Part shown: piece after piece, positions 24,931 through 34,760 of the stretch
How the letters are laid out: every line of letters begins with the position of its first letter
How positions within the stretch are numbered: position 1 is the first letter of the stretch
Assembly: GCA_902777325.1 (NCBI GenBank)
Contig: CACYTH010000009.1
Location: 88,819-152,818, forward strand
From: an uncultured Coriobacteriaceae bacterium
Lineage (GTDB): Bacteria; Actinomycetota; Coriobacteriia; Coriobacteriales; Atopobiaceae
Direction of reading: 5' to 3'
DNA length: 64,000 nt
Translations under genes and position numbers: made by a program
The notes under the pieces: generated by a model
Told to the model about the DNA's origin: nothing
Database searches by the model: none
Seen by the model: the letters and a program-made list of their open reading frames with translations, nothing else

Positions 24931-25320
24931 ATGAAGCATACAGAGGTAGCAAGCCCTCGTGTGGCGCAGATTAACGTTAGGATTGATCGCTCACTCAAGG
25001 ACGAGGGCGACGCGGTGCTGGCCGAGGCGGGCATATCACCCACGCGCATCGTGAGGGACCTGTGGACCAAACTGGCGCAGCGCGGCACGGCGCTCGACGA
25101 GGTGGTTGCGGCGCTGGGCGCGAGTGGGTTCACTCCCGACGAGCAGGCAGCCATCGACGCAAAGCTTGCCGTGATCGACCGGGTGTCTCGGCGGCGCGAC
25201 CAGCTGGCCGGGCAGCTCGGACTCTCCTCGGCGACGGAGCCCCTTTACCAGGATGGCTTTGAGTGGCGCGACCGCGTGCGTGCCGAGCGCGACCGCAAGA
25301 GGGGAAGGAGGGGTCTCTGA
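24931..25320 (+). CDS. RelB/DinJ-like antitoxin
   Basis: This 129-residue protein has an N-terminal ribbon-helix-helix segment (residues 13-45: INVRIDRSLKDEGDAVL, then GISPTRIVRDLWTKLAQRG) of RelB/DinJ type, followed by a charged helical region that would wrap the toxin. It would repress its own promoter through the palindrome just upstream and neutralise the PIN toxin. Its stop TGA overlaps the toxin ATG by one base, the usual coupling in such pairs. The partner is a PIN nuclease rather than the RelE/YafQ fold normally found with this antitoxin family. Confidence 0.82.
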   Translation: MKHTEVASPRVAQINVRIDRSLKDEGDAVLAEAGISPTRIVRDLWTKLAQRGTALDEVVAALGASGFTPDEQAAIDAKLAVIDRVSRRRDQLAGQLGLSSATEPLYQDGFEWRDRVRAERDRKRGRRGL

Positions 25321-25814
25321 TGGCGGGCGGACAGCTGCGTATCATGCTCGACGCCAACGTGTGGCTCGACTTCTTTATCCCCGGGCGAGCAAGCTCTGCC
25401 ACCGCGTCGCGACTCATCCGTGGCGCGGTCGAGCGCAACGCGGAGCTGCTGTACCCCTCGCACATCATTGAGGACCTGTTCTACGAGATTCGTCGCGACG
25501 CTGCGGAGTGGACGCGGGCGGGTGCGGGTGAGGTCACGCGCGAGGCTGCGCGCTACTGTCATGACTACGCGTGGGGGTGCATGGAGGACCTCCACGAGCT
25601 GGCGACTGCGGTGGCCACCGATGACGCCGACGTGCTCACGGCGCTCAAGTTCCGGTCGCTCAGCGAGGACCTGGGAGACAACCTTGTGCTGGTGGCGGCG
25701 CAGCGTGCGGGCGTGGACTATCTGGTGACTTCTGACAACGTGATGCTCAACAAGGCGACCGTAGCGGCGCTTGCTCCGCAGGACATGCTCTCGGTGCTGG
25801 AGGCCGGGCTGTAG
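25320..25814 (+). CDS. PIN-domain ribonuclease toxin
   Basis: This 164-residue PIN-fold nuclease has conserved acidic residues in LDANVWLDFF (about residue 10), a Glu in HIIEDLFYEI, Asp in TDDADVLTALKF and Asp in VDYLVTSDN. PIN toxins of the VapC type cut tRNA or rRNA in a metal-dependent way and stop translation. The ATG at 25320 overlaps the antitoxin stop; GGGGAAGGAGGGG precedes it. Together the two genes form a type II toxin-antitoxin module. The target RNA is unknown. Confidence 0.83.
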   Translation: MAGGQLRIMLDANVWLDFFIPGRASSATASRLIRGAVERNAELLYPSHIIEDLFYEIRRDAAEWTRAGAGEVTREAARYCHDYAWGCMEDLHELATAVATDDADVLTALKFRSLSEDLGDNLVLVAAQRAGVDYLVTSDNVMLNKATVAALAPQDMLSVLEAGL

Positions 25815-25831
25815 GCTCGCAGGGTGAGGTA

Positions 25832-26124
25832 TTTCGCGTGGTGCACTGCGGGGTTGGGGACGCGGCGAAATTTCACGGCTGGTGCAGTGCGCCGGATGGC
25901 GCCCGGCGAAAATCTACGCTCGGTGCGCTGCGTGCGGTTGCGTTGGGCGGGAATTTTCGACTGGTTCACCGTGGCGCGGAATCGGGTGCACCAGGCGAAA
26001 AATACCGCCGCGATACTCGCCCCAGAGTGCACCACGCGAAAATCTTGACGAGCCCCCGATTCTGGAGTGCACCAAGTGAAAACTTTTGCCCCGCCCCAGA
26101 CCTCGGAGTGCACCAAGCGAAAAC
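25832..26124. repeat. Inverted array of eight ~20-bp units, copy 1
   Basis: Four left-facing units start near 25832, 25871, 25911 and 25953; four right-facing units near 25983, 26023, 26064 and 26105. The core is GTGCACCAAGCGAAAA (right) and its complement (left). Within each arm the spacing is 40-42 bp; across the centre it is 22 bp. The unit-to-unit spacers also pair across the centre (for example GGCGAAATTTCAC against GTGAAAACTTTTGCC), so the whole block is one imperfect ~290-bp palindrome. A homologous copy in the same orientation lies at 27440. The 488-bp gap holds no convincing gene. Confidence 0.85.
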
Positions 26125-26302
26125 TCTTGCCATGCCCCGAGCCCTGTGTGTAAAGCGTGACGATGTGGCTCAAATTCCCCAGCTCTTTTGTATGTAGGCA
26201 CGAACAAAAGGCGAGCTACAAGAGTTGCATCCCATCCATGTGCGACCATTTGGCTACCGAGTGCCTACAGTGCGCCAACGTCACTGCCCTACGCTTCTGC
26301 CT

Positions 26303-27385
26303 ATGGACATTGTGATTACGGGTAAGAGCGCCCTAACGCTCTACAGGCAAATGAGGGCAGGCAAACTGCAGCTTAAGGCGAAGCCCATCCCCATGGCTTT
26401 CGTCTCATGGGAGAAGCTCGACGGCAAACAAGTGCGGGAGCTAAGTATTCCCGCCCTCGAGACGTCGGGACTCTTTACCGTAGACAGGCCGCTGGATCTA
26501 CGCGTGCGTGATACACGGGATAGGGTGCGCCTCGGGACGGTCGTCTGTCACGCAACAACCAAGCCGCTCCCAGGCGGTTCGATCGTCGAGCTTACGGCGC
26601 CTTGGCACAGTGCCGACTTGCTGCCGTTGGAGCAGGGATGCCGCGTCCTCATGGACAGCGCGCCGCTGATGATTTTGGACATGGCTGGCCAGCTCTGTGA
26701 GCACGTGAACAATGGGAAGATGTCCCATGACGTCGGGATAATGAGGCTCACGGAGTTGATTTGCGAGTTTTGCGGTACATACGCGAGACACTATCTGAAC
26801 CCACGAAACGGCGAGATGACCTTTGAGATCGAGCCAGCAACTACGGTAAGCGAGGTCAGAGAATACCTGTCCCGCGTGCGTGGCATATCGGGGATCAAGC
26901 TTGCACGAGCGGCGGTTGCGCTGGCAGTCGATAAGCTGGCGTCGCCTATGGAGCTCGTGGTGTACGCGGCGATGGCGTTTCCGCCACGTCTGGGCGGTCT
27001 GCACATTCAAGACATACGGGTCAACGAGCCGCTCAACCTGTCGGTGGTGCCCAGGGGTACGCTAGCTCACCAGCAGTTGACTCCGGACCTTAGGGTTGGA
27101 GACCGACCAGTGGTTGTCGAGTACAACGGCAAGGAGCATCTCAAGAAATACCGTGTGCGGCAGGACAAGAATCGCGCACAGGACTATGCGAAGCTCGGCA
27201 TCTACCAGTATCCGCTGATGATCGAAGATGTCTGTACGGTCGATGCGCTTGAGCGAACGTTACGGGACTTTGTTGACTTGCTGACGCCGTACGAAGGCCT
27301 CAGCTTTCGCGCCAGGACGCTACGCATTCTCCGCGACCGAAAATACAGAGCTGCTCGACAGCGCCTGCTTGACACGTATCTATAA
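26303..27385 (+). CDS. AbiEi-like protein with PD-(D/E)XK nuclease-like C-domain
   Basis: This 360-residue protein is only partly recognisable. The N-terminus (MDIVITGKSALTLYRQMRAG) resembles the start of AbiEi/DUF559-type proteins common in Coriobacteriia. The C-terminal third carries a PD-(D/E)XK pattern: SPMELVVYAAM (Glu), LTPDLRV (Asp), VVVEYNGKEH (Glu, with Asn where Asp is usual), then a basic helix KKYRVRQDKNRAQDYAKLG. It may be a DNA nuclease, a regulator, or an inactive relative. Start ATG 26303 has no clear ribosome site; TTG 26225 is an alternative. Base composition is less GC-rich than neighbours. It is flanked by two copies of the inverted array, which suggests acquisition. Confidence 0.65.
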   Translation: MDIVITGKSALTLYRQMRAGKLQLKAKPIPMAFVSWEKLDGKQVRELSIPALETSGLFTVDRPLDLRVRDTRDRVRLGTVVCHATTKPLPGGSIVELTAPWHSADLLPLEQGCRVLMDSAPLMILDMAGQLCEHVNNGKMSHDVGIMRLTELICEFCGTYARHYLNPRNGEMTFEIEPATTVSEVREYLSRVRGISGIKLARAAVALAVDKLASPMELVVYAAMAFPPRLGGLHIQDIRVNEPLNLSVVPRGTLAHQQLTPDLRVGDRPVVVEYNGKEHLKKYRVRQDKNRAQDYAKLGIYQYPLMIEDVCTVDALERTLRDFVDLLTPYEGLSFRARTLRILRDRKYRAARQRLLDTYL

Positions 27386-27439
27386 AAAACGCGGTCTGCC
27401 TGAGGATTGGTGCTGGGTAGGGTGGCGCAGTCGGAGATT

Positions 27440-27733
27440 ATCTCCGCTTGGTGCAGTCAGTGGCTTTGGGTACAGCGATATTATGCAGCTGGTGCACTGC
27501 GCTGGGTGGTGTTCGGCGAGAATTCGCTCCTGGTGCGCCGTCCGCGGTGGCATTGGGAGGGATTTTCCGCGTGGTGCATCGCGGCGCGGAATCGAGTGCA
27601 CCAATCGAAAAATACCGCCGCGACAATCGCACAGGGTGCACCAGGCGAGCATTTTAGCCGCGCCTCCGATTCCGCAGCGCACCAAGCGCAAACTTTTGCC
27701 CCACCCCAGACTCCGGACTGCACCAAGCGCAAA
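27440..27733. repeat. Inverted array of eight ~20-bp units, copy 2
   Basis: This has the same plan as the array at 25832: left-facing units with cores near 27451, 27492, 27533 and 27573, then right-facing units near 27596, 27636, 27677 and 27718. Spacing is 40-41 bp in each arm and 23 bp at the centre. The centre is strongly conserved between copies (GGCGCGGAATCG and GAAAAATACCGCCGCGA). It fills most of the 451-bp gap between the nuclease-like gene and the AI-2E-family gene; I see no gene in it. Confidence 0.85.
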
Positions 27734-30378: not shown

Positions 30379-30949
30379 GGCGACACCCCCCCTCAAAGGC
30401 GTAACCATTGCTACTGGCAATCTAAAGAACAATCCCAAAGGTGATTATCGCTATATGTCTTCCGTTTGACCAAAGCGACAAGAAACTATTCTGCAAAGCA
30501 ATGAAATCACATAGTGAGCGGTTAATGCTAGCGAGATAAAACATTATCTGCGCAAGCGGCAAGCCTTAGAATAGCGGTAGATCATCCGAGTAGCCTAAAT
30601 GATATTCAAATACAGCATATAGGTCCAACATATTTCAATACTGGCATCAAGCTGAACAGTCATAAGCTGCAGTATCTAAGTCCAATGAAACGTATATATG
30701 AAGGTAAATCACTATAGTGTCATGTTAGTTCTCTAAATAGGTGCTTTCTCTCTGGAGGCGCTAGGTCAGTAATAGGAAATGCGAGAGGTAGTCATGGGCA
30801 GAAACGAGACCAAAACGCAGCCCGTCCCAGTGACAACACGAAAACGCAAACGACTCGGTTTTGATGCCCGGGCGGGGACGCCTCCCTCGGGCTTTTGGCA
30901 CGTAGGTGAGGCATCGTCCGCGCAAGGTAATGGTTCTAAGGGGTTGGCA
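30379..30949. other. AT-rich divergent regulatory region
   Basis: 571 bp between the LytTR regulator and the adhesin. About 30420-30780 is visibly AT-rich compared with the surrounding DNA. It includes CACTATAGTG at 30710-30719, a 10-bp palindrome, and scattered CAGT/GTTA motifs that could belong to LytTR sites, though I cannot align a convincing direct repeat. The adhesin frame stays open back to 30779, so part of this region could be coding. Confidence 0.6.
30866..30896 (+). promoter_or_regulatory. Possible attenuator hairpin in adhesin leader
   Basis: GCCCG/CGGGC closes an inner G-rich/C-rich stem and is followed by TTTT, 54 bp before the chosen adhesin start. It could be a leader terminator. 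It would instead lie inside coding sequence if translation starts at 30779 or 30794. Confidence 0.35.
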
Positions 30950-33700
30950 ATGAGTAGAAGATCGAAGCTGAGAGCATGGGTGGTGGCACTGGTCGCCGCA
31001 CTTGCCGTGGTTGTGGGAAGCATCGGCGTCGCGTTTGCGGCTGTCGGTGATGTACCTCCGCACACGAAGAATCTGAGGAACAATCAAGACGGCACGTACA
31101 CGCTGTCCCTCGACGTGGTCGGCGACTCTGAGAAGAAGCCCAATAATGTCAACGTCATCGTGATCTTCGATACGTCAGGCTCGATGACGCAGCAGCGCAT
31201 GACTGCTGCGAAGAACGCTGTCAACAGTTTGGCCAACTCGCTATACGCCTATAACACGTCAAGCGAGCCTGATACTGTTGAGATGGCGCTCGTGCGCTTC
31301 GCGACGTCGTCCCGTGTCGCGCAGCAGCCTACGGCGAATGCAAACACGTTCCGCAGCACGGTCAATGGTCTTGGTAATGCTGGAGACGGTGGCACTAACT
31401 GGGAGTCGGCGTTGCAGACCGCCAATGGCGTGAACTTCAATGATAACGATCAGACGTTCGTCGTCTTCGTATCCGACGGCAACCCCACGTTCCGCACTTC
31501 GCAGAACGGCTGGAATGACTGGAGCAACCAGTATCAGCAGTGGGGTAGCGGCCGGGAGACTGCCACGAATATCCAGCGTTGTTACACGACGGCTGTTGAC
31601 GACGCTAAGGCTCTTGCCACCAAGGTTACCCCTGCCAACTTCTTCACGATTGGTGCCTTCGGCAACGTTGACCGTATGGAGCAGCTGACCGACGATGCTG
31701 GTTCCAACTCGGACACCAATTACTACAACGCCTCTGACACCGCGGCCCTCAATCAGGCCATCTCGGAAATCCTTGCAAAGATTGAGATGTCCGGTATCGG
31801 CAACACCTCGATTGAGGACGGCACCACAAACAGTGTGACCACCTCGTCAGGAGAGATCGCCAATCTTCTCGAGGTCGATACATCTTCATTCAAGTACTCC
31901 CGTTCTGGCGGTTCGTATGGAACCGGCCAGGATTGGGCTGACGCACCAGAAGCTAAGCTTGTGAACGGTGCGGTCGAGTGGGACCTCTCCAAGGAGGGTA
32001 CCAACGGCATTCTCGAGAACGGCGTGAAGTACACCGTCACCTTTGACGTGTATCCCAGCCAGACTACCTACGACACCATTGCCAAGCTCAAGAACGGCGA
32101 CATCACGTACGACAGCCTTGATTCCGAGATTAAGAAGTACATCGTTGACAACGGAGGCGGCGCTTACTCACTGCGCACCAACACCAACGCAACGCTGTCC
32201 TATGACGACACTCGCGATGAGGAGGGGCAACAGGAGAGTCCGTACGTTAACCCTGATCCTGTGGCGACTGACGCTGAGATGCTGACCGTCAAGAAGGAGT
32301 GGGTTGGCGCAAATCCTCCGAGCGGCGATCTCAAGATGACCGTCAACATGGATGGCGAGGCGTTCAGCACTGTTACACTGAACAGTGGCAACAGCTGGTC
32401 TGACGATTCGTATATCTCAATCGGCATCATCAAGAACGGCGAGGCGCTCCCCGGTGCCGAGGGCCACGACTTCAGCTTTGCAGAGCTTGACGGCTCGCAG
32501 TATCGCTGGGAGCTCGATGCGCCGACAGTGCATCCGATGCTTGTGAACGGCAAGCTGACTATGCTCGTGAAGGAGGATGCCGACCATAAGGCCCCGGCCG
32601 GTGCAACCAAATATACGATCGGCCAGGGCACGTACTATGTGGACAATGCCGTCACCAACCTCACGGCAACCAATACGCGTCGCTCCAACCTCAATCTGAA
32701 GAAAGTCGTAACTGGCGATAATGCCCCTGCTGACGCCCTGTTCCCCTTCACCCTGAAGGTTAAGAACTCGAAGGCCGACCCCAGCGACAGCACGAACGGG
32801 GACAATGTTGTGTGGTTCTCGATCCAGGACAAGGACGGGAATATCGTTAAGGACGCCAGCCGCGTCTCTGGCGCGACGGCCGAAGATGGCGACACTGGTT
32901 ATTACTATGCTGACAGCAATGCTGCAATCAGCGTAAAGCTCAAGGCTGGCGAGAACCTCCGCTTCACCAACCTGCCTTCTGGCTCCACCTATGAGTTCAC
33001 CGAGGGTGACGCATCTGGCTTCGAGTTCGTGACGGCCGAGAATACCGGCGAGAATGATTCGACCTTTACTGGTGGGAAGACGTCAACTGGTACGGTTGAG
33101 AAAGCTGGCAACCTGTCTTATGAGGTGACTTACACCAATAAGTACACTCCCGAGCCCGTTAAGGCTAGCTTCCCCGTCAAGAAGGTCATCGAGAAGGCTG
33201 ACGGCCTGACTGGCCCCTCCGAGTGGAGCTACACGATCGATGTGACCGCCAACGGCAACGCGCCTGAGGCTGAGACTATGACCGGTACAGTCAACCAGAG
33301 CAATGACACGGTTACTTTCGGCGACTTCACGTTTACCGCGCCTGGAACCTATACCTATACCGTGAAGGAGACGGGTACTGTTGCTGGCGTCACTAACGAT
33401 GCGGACGCTGCCGGCAAGACCGTCACCATCAAGGTCGAGGACAAGAACGGCGACGGTAAGCTGACTGCAACCGTTACTCCGACGGACGGCATTACCTTTA
33501 CCAATACGTATGACGCCAAGGGCGAGGCCGTTCTCGAGGTCACCAAGGCCGTCGAGGGCGCCGGCTGGCCCGCGGGCAAGAAGCTGACCTTCACGCTCGA
33601 CGGCGAGGGCGGCCGCTCCCGGAAAGGCGACCTTCGGCGCCATCAAGTACACCGCGGCCGACGCTGGCAAGACCTACACCTACACCATCTCCGAGGGTAA
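30950..33700 (+). CDS. Large pilin-repeat adhesin, N-terminal segment (frameshifted)
   Basis: The segment starts with a Sec signal (MSRRSKLRAWVVALVAALAV ... VAFAA, cleavage near residue 31). A von Willebrand A domain follows with MIDAS DTSGS at 74-78, then CnaB-like and pilin isopeptide-linkage (FctA/TIGR03786-type) repeats with the recurring pattern FTFxL ... YTYTVKETG ... TVTIKVEDK ... ITFTNTY. ATG 30950 has AAGGGG ahead and starts the signal peptide; ATG 30794 is a rival giving a long leader. True coding continuity ends near 33613: downstream the frame reads Arg/His-rich nonsense to the stop at 33700, while homology continues in the +1 frame. The start of this segment is less GC-rich than the repeats. 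Confidence 0.8.
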   Translation: MSRRSKLRAWVVALVAALAVVVGSIGVAFAAVGDVPPHTKNLRNNQDGTYTLSLDVVGDSEKKPNNVNVIVIFDTSGSMTQQRMTAAKNAVNSLANSLYAYNTSSEPDTVEMALVRFATSSRVAQQPTANANTFRSTVNGLGNAGDGGTNWESALQTANGVNFNDNDQTFVVFVSDGNPTFRTSQNGWNDWSNQYQQWGSGRETATNIQRCYTTAVDDAKALATKVTPANFFTIGAFGNVDRMEQLTDDAGSNSDTNYYNASDTAALNQAISEILAKIEMSGIGNTSIEDGTTNSVTTSSGEIANLLEVDTSSFKYSRSGGSYGTGQDWADAPEAKLVNGAVEWDLSKEGTNGILENGVKYTVTFDVYPSQTTYDTIAKLKNGDITYDSLDSEIKKYIVDNGGGAYSLRTNTNATLSYDDTRDEEGQQESPYVNPDPVATDAEMLTVKKEWVGANPPSGDLKMTVNMDGEAFSTVTLNSGNSWSDDSYISIGIIKNGEALPGAEGHDFSFAELDGSQYRWELDAPTVHPMLVNGKLTMLVKEDADHKAPAGATKYTIGQGTYYVDNAVTNLTATNTRRSNLNLKKVVTGDNAPADALFPFTLKVKNSKADPSDSTNGDNVVWFSIQDKDGNIVKDASRVSGATAEDGDTGYYYADSNAAISVKLKAGENLRFTNLPSGSTYEFTEGDASGFEFVTAENTGENDSTFTGGKTSTGTVEKAGNLSYEVTYTNKYTPEPVKASFPVKKVIEKADGLTGPSEWSYTIDVTANGNAPEAETMTGTVNQSNDTVTFGDFTFTAPGTYTYTVKETGTVAGVTNDADAAGKTVTIKVEDKNGDGKLTATVTPTDGITFTNTYDAKGEAVLEVTKAVEGAGWPAGKKLTFTLDGEGGRSRKGDLRRHQVHRGRRWQDLHLHHLRG
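33515..33613 (+). repeat. 99-bp exact repeat at first adhesin frameshift, copy 1
   Basis: The 99 bases from GCCAAGGGCGAGGCC to GGCGAGGGCGGC are identical to 34548-34646. After it, 10 bases separate the block from AAGGCGACC, where a multiple of three is needed, which shifts the frame by +1. Confidence 0.9.
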
Positions 33701-33734
33701 TGGGTTTGGCACCGGCTGGACCGGCTCCGGCGAC

Positions 33735-34760
33735 GTGACCGCCACCGTCAAGGTCACCGACAACGGCAACGGCACGCTCAAGGCCGACGTCACCTACTCG
33801 CCCGAGGACGCGACCATCACCAACACCTACAAGGCCAAGGGCTCTGCCGAGATCGAGGTCACCAAGAAGCTCACCGGCCGCGACTGGCTCGACGGCGAGA
33901 CCTTCACCTTCACGCTGACCGGCCCGAACGGTGTGAACGAGTCTGTCGAGGTCAGCGAGAACAGCCCCGTCGCGAAGTTCCAGGCCATTAGCTATACTCA
34001 GGCGGACATCGACAAGACCTACACCTACACCGTCTCCGAGACCGGCAACCTGCCTGGCGGCATCACCAAGTCCGGCGACGTGACCGTGACCGTCAAGATC
34101 ACTGACAAGGGCGACGGCACGCTGGCCACCGATGTCTCCTACCAGGACGGCAACAACACCATCACCAACAAGTACGATGCCACGGGTTCCGTCGAGCTCG
34201 AGGCCATCAAGAAGCTCGAGGGCCGCGATTGGAAGGAAGGCGAGTCCTACACCTTCACCCTCAAGGACGCCGATGGCAACGTCCTCGACGAGAAGACCGT
34301 GAGCTCCAACACCAAGGTGTCCTTCGACGCGCTTGAGTACACCGAGGAGGACATGGTCGACGAGAATGGCAACTATGCCTCTGAGGTCATCCTCAACTAC
34401 ACCATCGAAGAGACAACCAAGATGCCGGGCGGCATGACGAACTCCGGCAAGATCAACGTGACCGTCACGCTGACTGACGACGGCGAGGGCAACATCACCG
34501 CGAAGGCTGACTACACCAACAACGACACTATCACCAACACCTACGAGGCCAAGGGCGAGGCCGTTCTCGAGGTCACCAAGGCCGTCGAGGGCGCCGGCTG
34601 GCCCGCGGGCAAGAAGCTGACCTTCACGCTCGACGGCGAGGGCGGCGCAAGGCGACCTTCGGCGCCATCAAGTACACCGAGGCCGACGCGGGCAAGACCT
34701 ACACCTACACCATCTCCGAGGACGGCTTCGGCGACGGCTGGACCGGCTCCGGCGACGTGA
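33735..34760 (+). CDS. Large pilin-repeat adhesin, middle segment (other frame)
   Basis: This is the same gene as the flanking segments but read in the +1 frame. Protein similarity begins earlier, at about 33624 (KATFGAIKYT), and runs to about 34646. It holds about three isopeptide-linkage repeats with Lys-rich openings (EVTKKLTGRDWLDGETFTF, EAIKKLEGRDWKEGESYTF) and the usual TNTY ends. These domains form Lys-Asn bonds that stiffen Gram-positive pilins. The last residues before the stop at 34760 (GGARRPSAPSS...) are out-of-frame nonsense. No independent ribosome site is convincing, so it is probably not a separate gene. Confidence 0.7.
   Translation: MTATVKVTDNGNGTLKADVTYSPEDATITNTYKAKGSAEIEVTKKLTGRDWLDGETFTFTLTGPNGVNESVEVSENSPVAKFQAISYTQADIDKTYTYTVSETGNLPGGITKSGDVTVTVKITDKGDGTLATDVSYQDGNNTITNKYDATGSVELEAIKKLEGRDWKEGESYTFTLKDADGNVLDEKTVSSNTKVSFDALEYTEEDMVDENGNYASEVILNYTIEETTKMPGGMTNSGKINVTVTLTDDGEGNITAKADYTNNDTITNTYEAKGEAVLEVTKAVEGAGWPAGKKLTFTLDGEGGARRPSAPSSTPRPTRARPTPTPSPRTASATAGPAPAT
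34548..34646 (+). repeat. 99-bp exact repeat at second adhesin frameshift, copy 2
   Basis: This block is identical to 33515-33613. Here only 2 bases separate it from AAGGCGACC, shifting the frame by -1 and restoring the frame of the first segment. Confidence 0.9.

Follow-up and report, generated by a model that had tools for sequence, protein, structure and literature searches.

The window analyzed here is a 64,000-nucleotide stretch of contig CACYTH010000009.1 from an uncultured Coriobacteriaceae bacterium (genome G000). It contains two arrays of short repeated units, between which lies a single open reading frame with a GC content of 57.8%, as compared to 64.2% for the whole window (Table 1). 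With up to three mismatches allowed, the 16-bp unit core GTGCACCAAGCGAAAA has 12 matches in the window versus 0.53 ± 0.69 in shuffled sequences, and all 12 fall within the two blocks. The full unit is ∼24 bp long, about GTGCACCAnGCGAAAAttTTcGCC, and is placed with its GTGCAC end inward and its CGAAAA end outward; the left-arm units are degenerate, with 2 to 5 mismatches. Units of an arm are 40 to 41 bp apart, and the GTGCAC centers are separated by 22 bp across the middle. The two blocks are direct copies of each other, with 76.8% identity over 294 columns. An initial annotation of this DNA had described two ∼290-bp blocks of the same orientation, each with four units facing left and four facing right, on either side of one gene with a different base composition, and the places and counts that it gave were confirmed. 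Of its spacings, 40 to 42 bp in the arms and 22 to 23 bp at the center, we found 40 to 41 bp and 22 bp, and a spacing of 42 bp does not occur in the window.

Table 1 Features of the locus and its surroundings, in window positions
Feature	Position	Strand	Description
RelB-like/PIN toxin-antitoxin pair	24931-25814		Between cobB and the left array
Left array	25831..26123	.	Four units on - then four on +; E 4e-57 to right array
Left array, unit starts	25831, 25872, 25913, 25954	-	
Left array, unit starts	25986, 26027, 26067, 26108	+	
Gene	26303..27385	+	360 aa; predicted AbiEi-antitoxin-like domain (aa 1-209) and predicted EDxHD/Vsr-like nuclease domain (aa 214-332)
Codons of invariant E217, D262, E273, H279, D288	26951..27166	+	Candidate EDxHD active site; from family alignment and fold match to I-Bth0305I/Vsr
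Right array	27441..27733	.	Four units on - then four on +; unit order as in left array
Right array, unit starts	27441, 27482, 27523, 27564	-	
Right array, unit starts	27596, 27636, 27677, 27718	+	
Large surface-protein-like gene	30779-33700		
Open frame flanked by 66-bp direct repeat (77%)	33734-34760		Downstream of the surface-protein-like gene

The protein encoded between the arrays

No Pfam, NCBIfam, or PADLOC model names the window protein. Its ATG start is conserved in a 46%-identical relative. In a family alignment of 27 proteins, with relatives 24 to 46% identical to the window protein, the residues E155, G197, S214, E217, N241, P261, D262, E273, H279, D288, and R291 are invariant, and the least conserved stretch is residues 21 to 60 (mean identity 0.14). 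Three of the 27 members match REase_MTES_1575 (best E 2e-4), none matches Y1 in Pfam, and single relatives weakly match the PADLOC models PDC-S69 (E 2.5e-4) and HEase (E 0.006).

The AlphaFold2 model of the protein (pLDDT 90.7) was compared with known structures. The modeled C-domain matches the homing endonuclease I-Bth0305I (PDB 3r3p) with a Z of 10.6 over 95 residues at 2.3 Å, and Vsr with a Z of 9.0. It would share its catalytic fold with the EDxHD/Vsr-like homing endonucleases, as well as the order of the conserved acidic and histidine residues. The initial annotation had called this domain PD-(D/E)XK-like; for the predicted nuclease, EDxHD/Vsr-like would be a better name than the generic one, although the EDxHD profile match is weak (E 0.14). 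The N-domain, also modeled alone, matches the antitoxin domain of AbiEi (PDB 6y8q residues 67-195; Z 7.1, 124 residues, 3.7 Å) and next Rv2827c (PDB 1zel, Z 4.8), and nothing but AbiEi-like proteins stood out in the fold search. The likeness of the modeled N-domain to the AbiEi antitoxin domain is, at these Z values, a lead, and it is strengthened because both AbiEi-type structures top the match list. The resemblance to these type IV antitoxins, a family that binds inverted DNA repeats, lies in the fold of the N-domain. In contrast to them, the AbiEi winged helix is unmatched by the model, the domain is fused to a predicted nuclease, and no AbiEii toxin gene was noticed among the neighbors typed.

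The dN/dS of the gene is 0.06 to 0.11 between the window and two close relatives (G002 and G014), which indicates that an apparently intact nuclease is maintained by purifying selection.

Recurrence, dispersal, and helical phase of the arrays

A family match was found in 117 of 150 relatives of the order, often with 4 to 13 matches per genome, and among the 396 genomes of the phylum searched, strong matches to the core profile are confined to Coriobacteriales. The genomes are mostly metagenome-assembled, and the close relatives include uncultured Atopobiaceae/Coriobacteriaceae MAGs such as RUG13541 and UBA1367; judging by the record names and by what is generally known of the group, we take the host bacteria to be gut and rumen organisms. 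Carriage by a plasmid, phage, or virus was considered and dropped, the family having no match in the phages, plasmids, and viral contigs searched.

The bracketing of the gene by a repeated array recurs. At 18 of 30 core loci, a figure that counts the three window-type loci three times, the array is duplicated upstream and downstream of the gene (E < 1e-5, either orientation). A two-sided array was not detected at that sensitivity at the other 12, several of which carry a one-sided array. When one procedure was applied to all genes of the regions analyzed, an upstream/downstream repeat was present at 11 of 18 core genes, 7 of 16 distant family members, and 5 of 221 other genes. The first of these counts is an underestimate because the survey took the longest open reading frames, which swallow some arrays (e.g., L103), and three of the five control positives (L091, L095, and L097) adjoin family arrays. 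The repeats are mostly unrelated from locus to locus, each gene lineage having a repeat of its own. Genome G000 also holds a distant paralog (C3, L106) that has its own small arrays on both sides, with the core TATTGTGAGTAGTT.

Other arrangements were observed near family members. Upstream of another family paralog in genome G009, tandem 16-bp repeats with a CGCAGCCTGTGCCA core lie on one strand only (L112 2251-2379). A distant family gene (L117, G070 C3, 2681-3682) is flanked by a 118-bp direct repeat that is 98.3% identical, which suggests recent duplication or conversion. In genus g7, a macro-domain gene sits between the second and third family-array copies (L091 10125-10934, and likewise L092).

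The initial annotation had asked whether the arrays are scattered through genomes with no link to the gene, and the answer differs between genomes. The window array occurs at the locus in G000, G002, and G014 only, all of which carry a 95 to 100% identical gene. Elsewhere it has only partial matches, on G014 C240, G002 C4, and G000 C1; the last, a weak 55-bp match, is the extent to which arrays have spread in the window's own genome. The congener G009 has a protein 46% identical to that of the window and a different repeat. Its gene is bracketed by arrays of GGAAAG...GAGTTGTGCG, spaced 41 to 42 bp, and this array occurs at at least 40 sites on 14 contigs, 38 of them away from the gene, and at none in the remaining 17 genomes of the genus. 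The scattered G009 arrays thus remain linked to the gene, as they share the repeat of its own arrays. Genome G043 has 21 genome-wide sites of the array of its own gene, and within 12 kb of that genome (L097 3791-15311) approximately nine copies of one array flank several genes, including that for phosphofructokinase.

Thirty-six G009 stretches were analyzed, which contain 37 arrays holding most of 383 units. In all 37, the plus units come first and the minus units after them, with polarity switching only once, and GTGC points inward, as in the window arrays. The spacing is exactly 42 bp in 292 of 309 cases, and the center measures 35 to 36 bp in 32 arrays, with 4 others longer by one turn. All 37 are intergenic, with tandem, convergent, and divergent neighbors, and none lies within a coding-like frame. 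Adjacent spacers of one arm are more alike within a G009 array (0.43) than otherwise (0.37), which fits growth by tandem duplication. GTAG is absent from the window arrays and from the array of the G009 gene; one CTAC is present in the left array of the window.

Across loci, the same-strand spacings are mostly near 21, 31, 41 to 42, 51 to 52, 62, 72, and 95 bp, with L018, L025, and L029 as exceptions. For 65 distinct locus-spacing pairs, R is about 0.53 at 10.0 to 10.25 bp. With one dominant spacing for each of 17 loci, R is 0.82 at 10.3 bp, a value unmatched in 20,000 randomizations; these dominant spacings are the analyst's pick, and the unpicked set gives the same period with a lower R. Spacings at multiples of ∼10.3 bp, one turn of DNA, are what would be expected for sites that face the same side of the helix, and the phase therefore points to double-stranded DNA. 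Of the two forms that the initial annotation had offered for each block, a ∼140-bp imperfect hairpin or eight phased protein sites, the second appears from these spacings to be the right picture.

The claim that the spacers also pair across the center was not upheld. In the window, spacers match at 0.47 whether the two arms compared come from the same array or from different ones. In the 37 G009 arrays, spacer complementarity of the arms is 0.346 for the same array versus 0.384 for different arrays, with unit columns matching at ∼0.75 in both comparisons. A hairpin is therefore unsupported, since arms kept for pairing should match better within an array and do not, and the reading of a 140-bp hairpin in DNA or RNA was rejected on this test. 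In an alignment of six window-type arrays, two-sided changes are modestly more frequent than in shuffles (9 cells versus 3.8), and these arrays are too few and too related to outweigh the G009 result. A known RNA family was likewise dropped, as Rfam gave no match at gathering level and only a sub-threshold miRNA match.

Turnover of the gene and its arrays at chromosomal sites

In the close relatives G002 and G014, the dS of the gene is 0.16 to 0.20, the lowest of a neighborhood in which the other genes range from 0.25 to 0.74, and the gene may therefore have been exchanged between species. The right half of the G002 left array is nearly identical to the right half of the G000 right array, and on this likeness left and right arrays appear to exchange sequence. 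The RelB-like/PIN pair listed in Table 1 is missing in G002, where the array directly follows cobB, and is present in G005 and G016.

A comparison with empty sites had been proposed in the initial annotation. A clean empty site at the window locus was not found among G005, G016, G012, and G015: the first two have the neighboring genes without the unit, and carry RelB-PIN and a nitroreductase-like gene there, and the latter two differ upstream of the locus. Gene-free sites were found in another genus, g4. Site A, defined in 30 g4 genomes by flanks 81 to 91% identical, holds the gene in 10 genomes, five per orientation, and several of its gene-free copies hold a solo array. The solo array of L132 matches arrays of the filled sites L126, L128, and L130 (92-97%, 70-78 bp), and that of L141 matches arrays of the filled L127 (74%, 129 bp), the filled sites being those of sister species. 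At site B, the gene is present in 16 genomes, nine one way round and seven the other, and, as at site A, it is lacking from some copies of the site. At the filled sites, array sequence is shared in each of the 15 protein pairs of at least ∼75% identity, and most pairs below 69% identity share none, with flanks that are still alike. These comparisons show that the arrays turn over together with the gene, with array likeness at matched sites partly tracking species relatedness.

Short elements were also observed at gene-free copies (L129 2298-2535, L131 2298-2618, L160 1335-1501, and L162 about 1330-1500, with the strand following the orientation of site A or B). They have a conserved center like GGTAGAGAAATGCTACC and variable terminal inverted repeats, and resemble miniature mobile elements of a family of their own.

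A proposed partnership of a nuclease gene and its repeats

We found no description of this combination of gene and phased arrays in the open-access literature. The data suggest that gene and repeats are partners of a kind not described before, with some of the behavior of a mobile element. The reading toward which we lean, if only slightly, is that of a cognate duo, in which a nuclease gene is accompanied by arrays of its DNA sites and the arrays are recombined and spread by the nuclease, in the manner of a REPtron. Its parts differ in strength. By analogy, it is quite probable that the protein binds its own units; such binding is made more likely by AbiEi and Rv2827c, each of which binds its own 23-bp inverted repeats but not those of the other (PMC7319586). 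That the nuclease drives recombination and copying of the arrays is about evenly poised, perhaps a shade in favor. In this reading, the units would be bound by the protein in double-stranded form, from one side of the helix, and the EDxHD domain would nick or cut at the arrays. Breaks in an array would then be repaired from another array, and such repair could lead to gene loss that leaves a solo array, to both orientations at one site, to exchange between left and right arrays, and to copying of arrays to new sites.

The arrays could instead be operators only, to which the AbiEi-like protein binds cooperatively to repress its own and perhaps the next gene, with no mobility and with the downstream copy arising by duplication. 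AbiEi and Rv2827c do repress their own operons through inverted-repeat binding (PMC7319586), and the helical phase suits cooperative binding. We nevertheless regard this as unlikely, as a full array is also present 3' of the gene, solo arrays persist where the gene is gone, and 37 G009 arrays are remote from the gene, with neighboring genes that run in tandem, converge, or diverge. Such regular, intergenic, dispersed arrays of fixed polarity could also be loading or bridging sites of a host chromosome-organizing protein that uses its nuclease fold mainly for DNA handling. This is improbable for a gene that is present or absent among sister species, has repeats wholly different between relatives and invariant nuclease residues, and is accompanied by almost no dispersed arrays in the window's genome.

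REP/RAYT systems typically have dispersed, bracketing repeats (PMC8266576), and another enzyme, a RAYT or an IS, might move the arrays, with the nuclease gene as a passenger or host of repeats. We consider this highly doubtful given that array presence follows this gene family at many independent loci and that neither the window nor the G009 arrays carry the GTAG tag. Similarly remote is an anti-phage defense or toxin-antitoxin unit whose nuclease is titrated or switched by the arrays. The AbiEi-like domain, the rapid turnover at fixed sites, and the weak PDC-S69 and HEase matches of single family members speak for it; against it stand the missing PADLOC match of the window protein, the lack of any noticeable consistent partner gene, and the absence of the family from the phages, plasmids, and viral contigs searched. 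The initial annotation had suggested a mobile or defense unit, and what survives of this is that gene and arrays form one unit, gained and lost and found in both orientations, whereas the defense role is unsupported. Finally, that the protein recognizes the arrays as transcribed hairpin RNA or single-stranded hairpin DNA is extremely unlikely, as the imperfect inverted repeat of each array and the two-sided changes are set against the lower same-array complementarity in G009, the Rfam result, and the 10.3-bp phase.

For the cognate duo, the closest comparison is the REPtron, a single tnpA_REP gene beside its repeats, which are spread through the genome (PMC8266576). As in TnpA_REP/RAYT systems with REP/BIME repeats (PMC8266576, PMC2817692, and PMC3116915), the gene is usually single and bordered by cognate repeats, the repeats lie scattered in intergenic DNA as alternating or inverted sets, and gene and repeat are paired by lineage. 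A single gene with genome-wide repeats was found in G009 and G043 and not in the window's genome. Unlike the REPtron, the predicted protein combines an AbiEi-like domain with an EDxHD nuclease rather than being an HUH/Y1 transposase, and the repeats form phased arrays of several units that change polarity once, lack the GTAG tag, and show no arm pairing specific to an array. The system is not a member of the REPtron family, since both the HUH protein and the GTAG repeat are lacking. The presence or absence of the gene at fixed sites resembles homing, but the gene differs from those of the I-Bth0305I type in that it is not in an intron or intein, it has an added AbiEi-like domain, and full arrays of sites flank it without being interrupted by it. 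A solo array that remains where the gene is missing recalls solo LTRs, although the element is not a retroelement and no transposase or target-site duplication was shown.

More tentatively, and with somewhat less confidence than we would need to favor it, we put forward a second, independently evolved REPtron-like system, in which an EDxHD nuclease with an antitoxin-like domain would recognize phased double-stranded DNA arrays, multiply and reshuffle them, and co-evolve rapidly with them, such that sister species share the chromosomal site and not the repeat. Among bacteria, the pairing of a solitary enzyme gene with dispersed repeats of its own is best known from REP/RAYT, and a second, unrelated duo would, if true, mean that this lifestyle arose on more than one occasion. 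A many-copy family, with core members that go unnamed by Pfam and NCBIfam models, would then also gain a likely target, and a natural series of nuclease-site pairs would be available from which to read how a large nuclease family shifts its DNA specificity.
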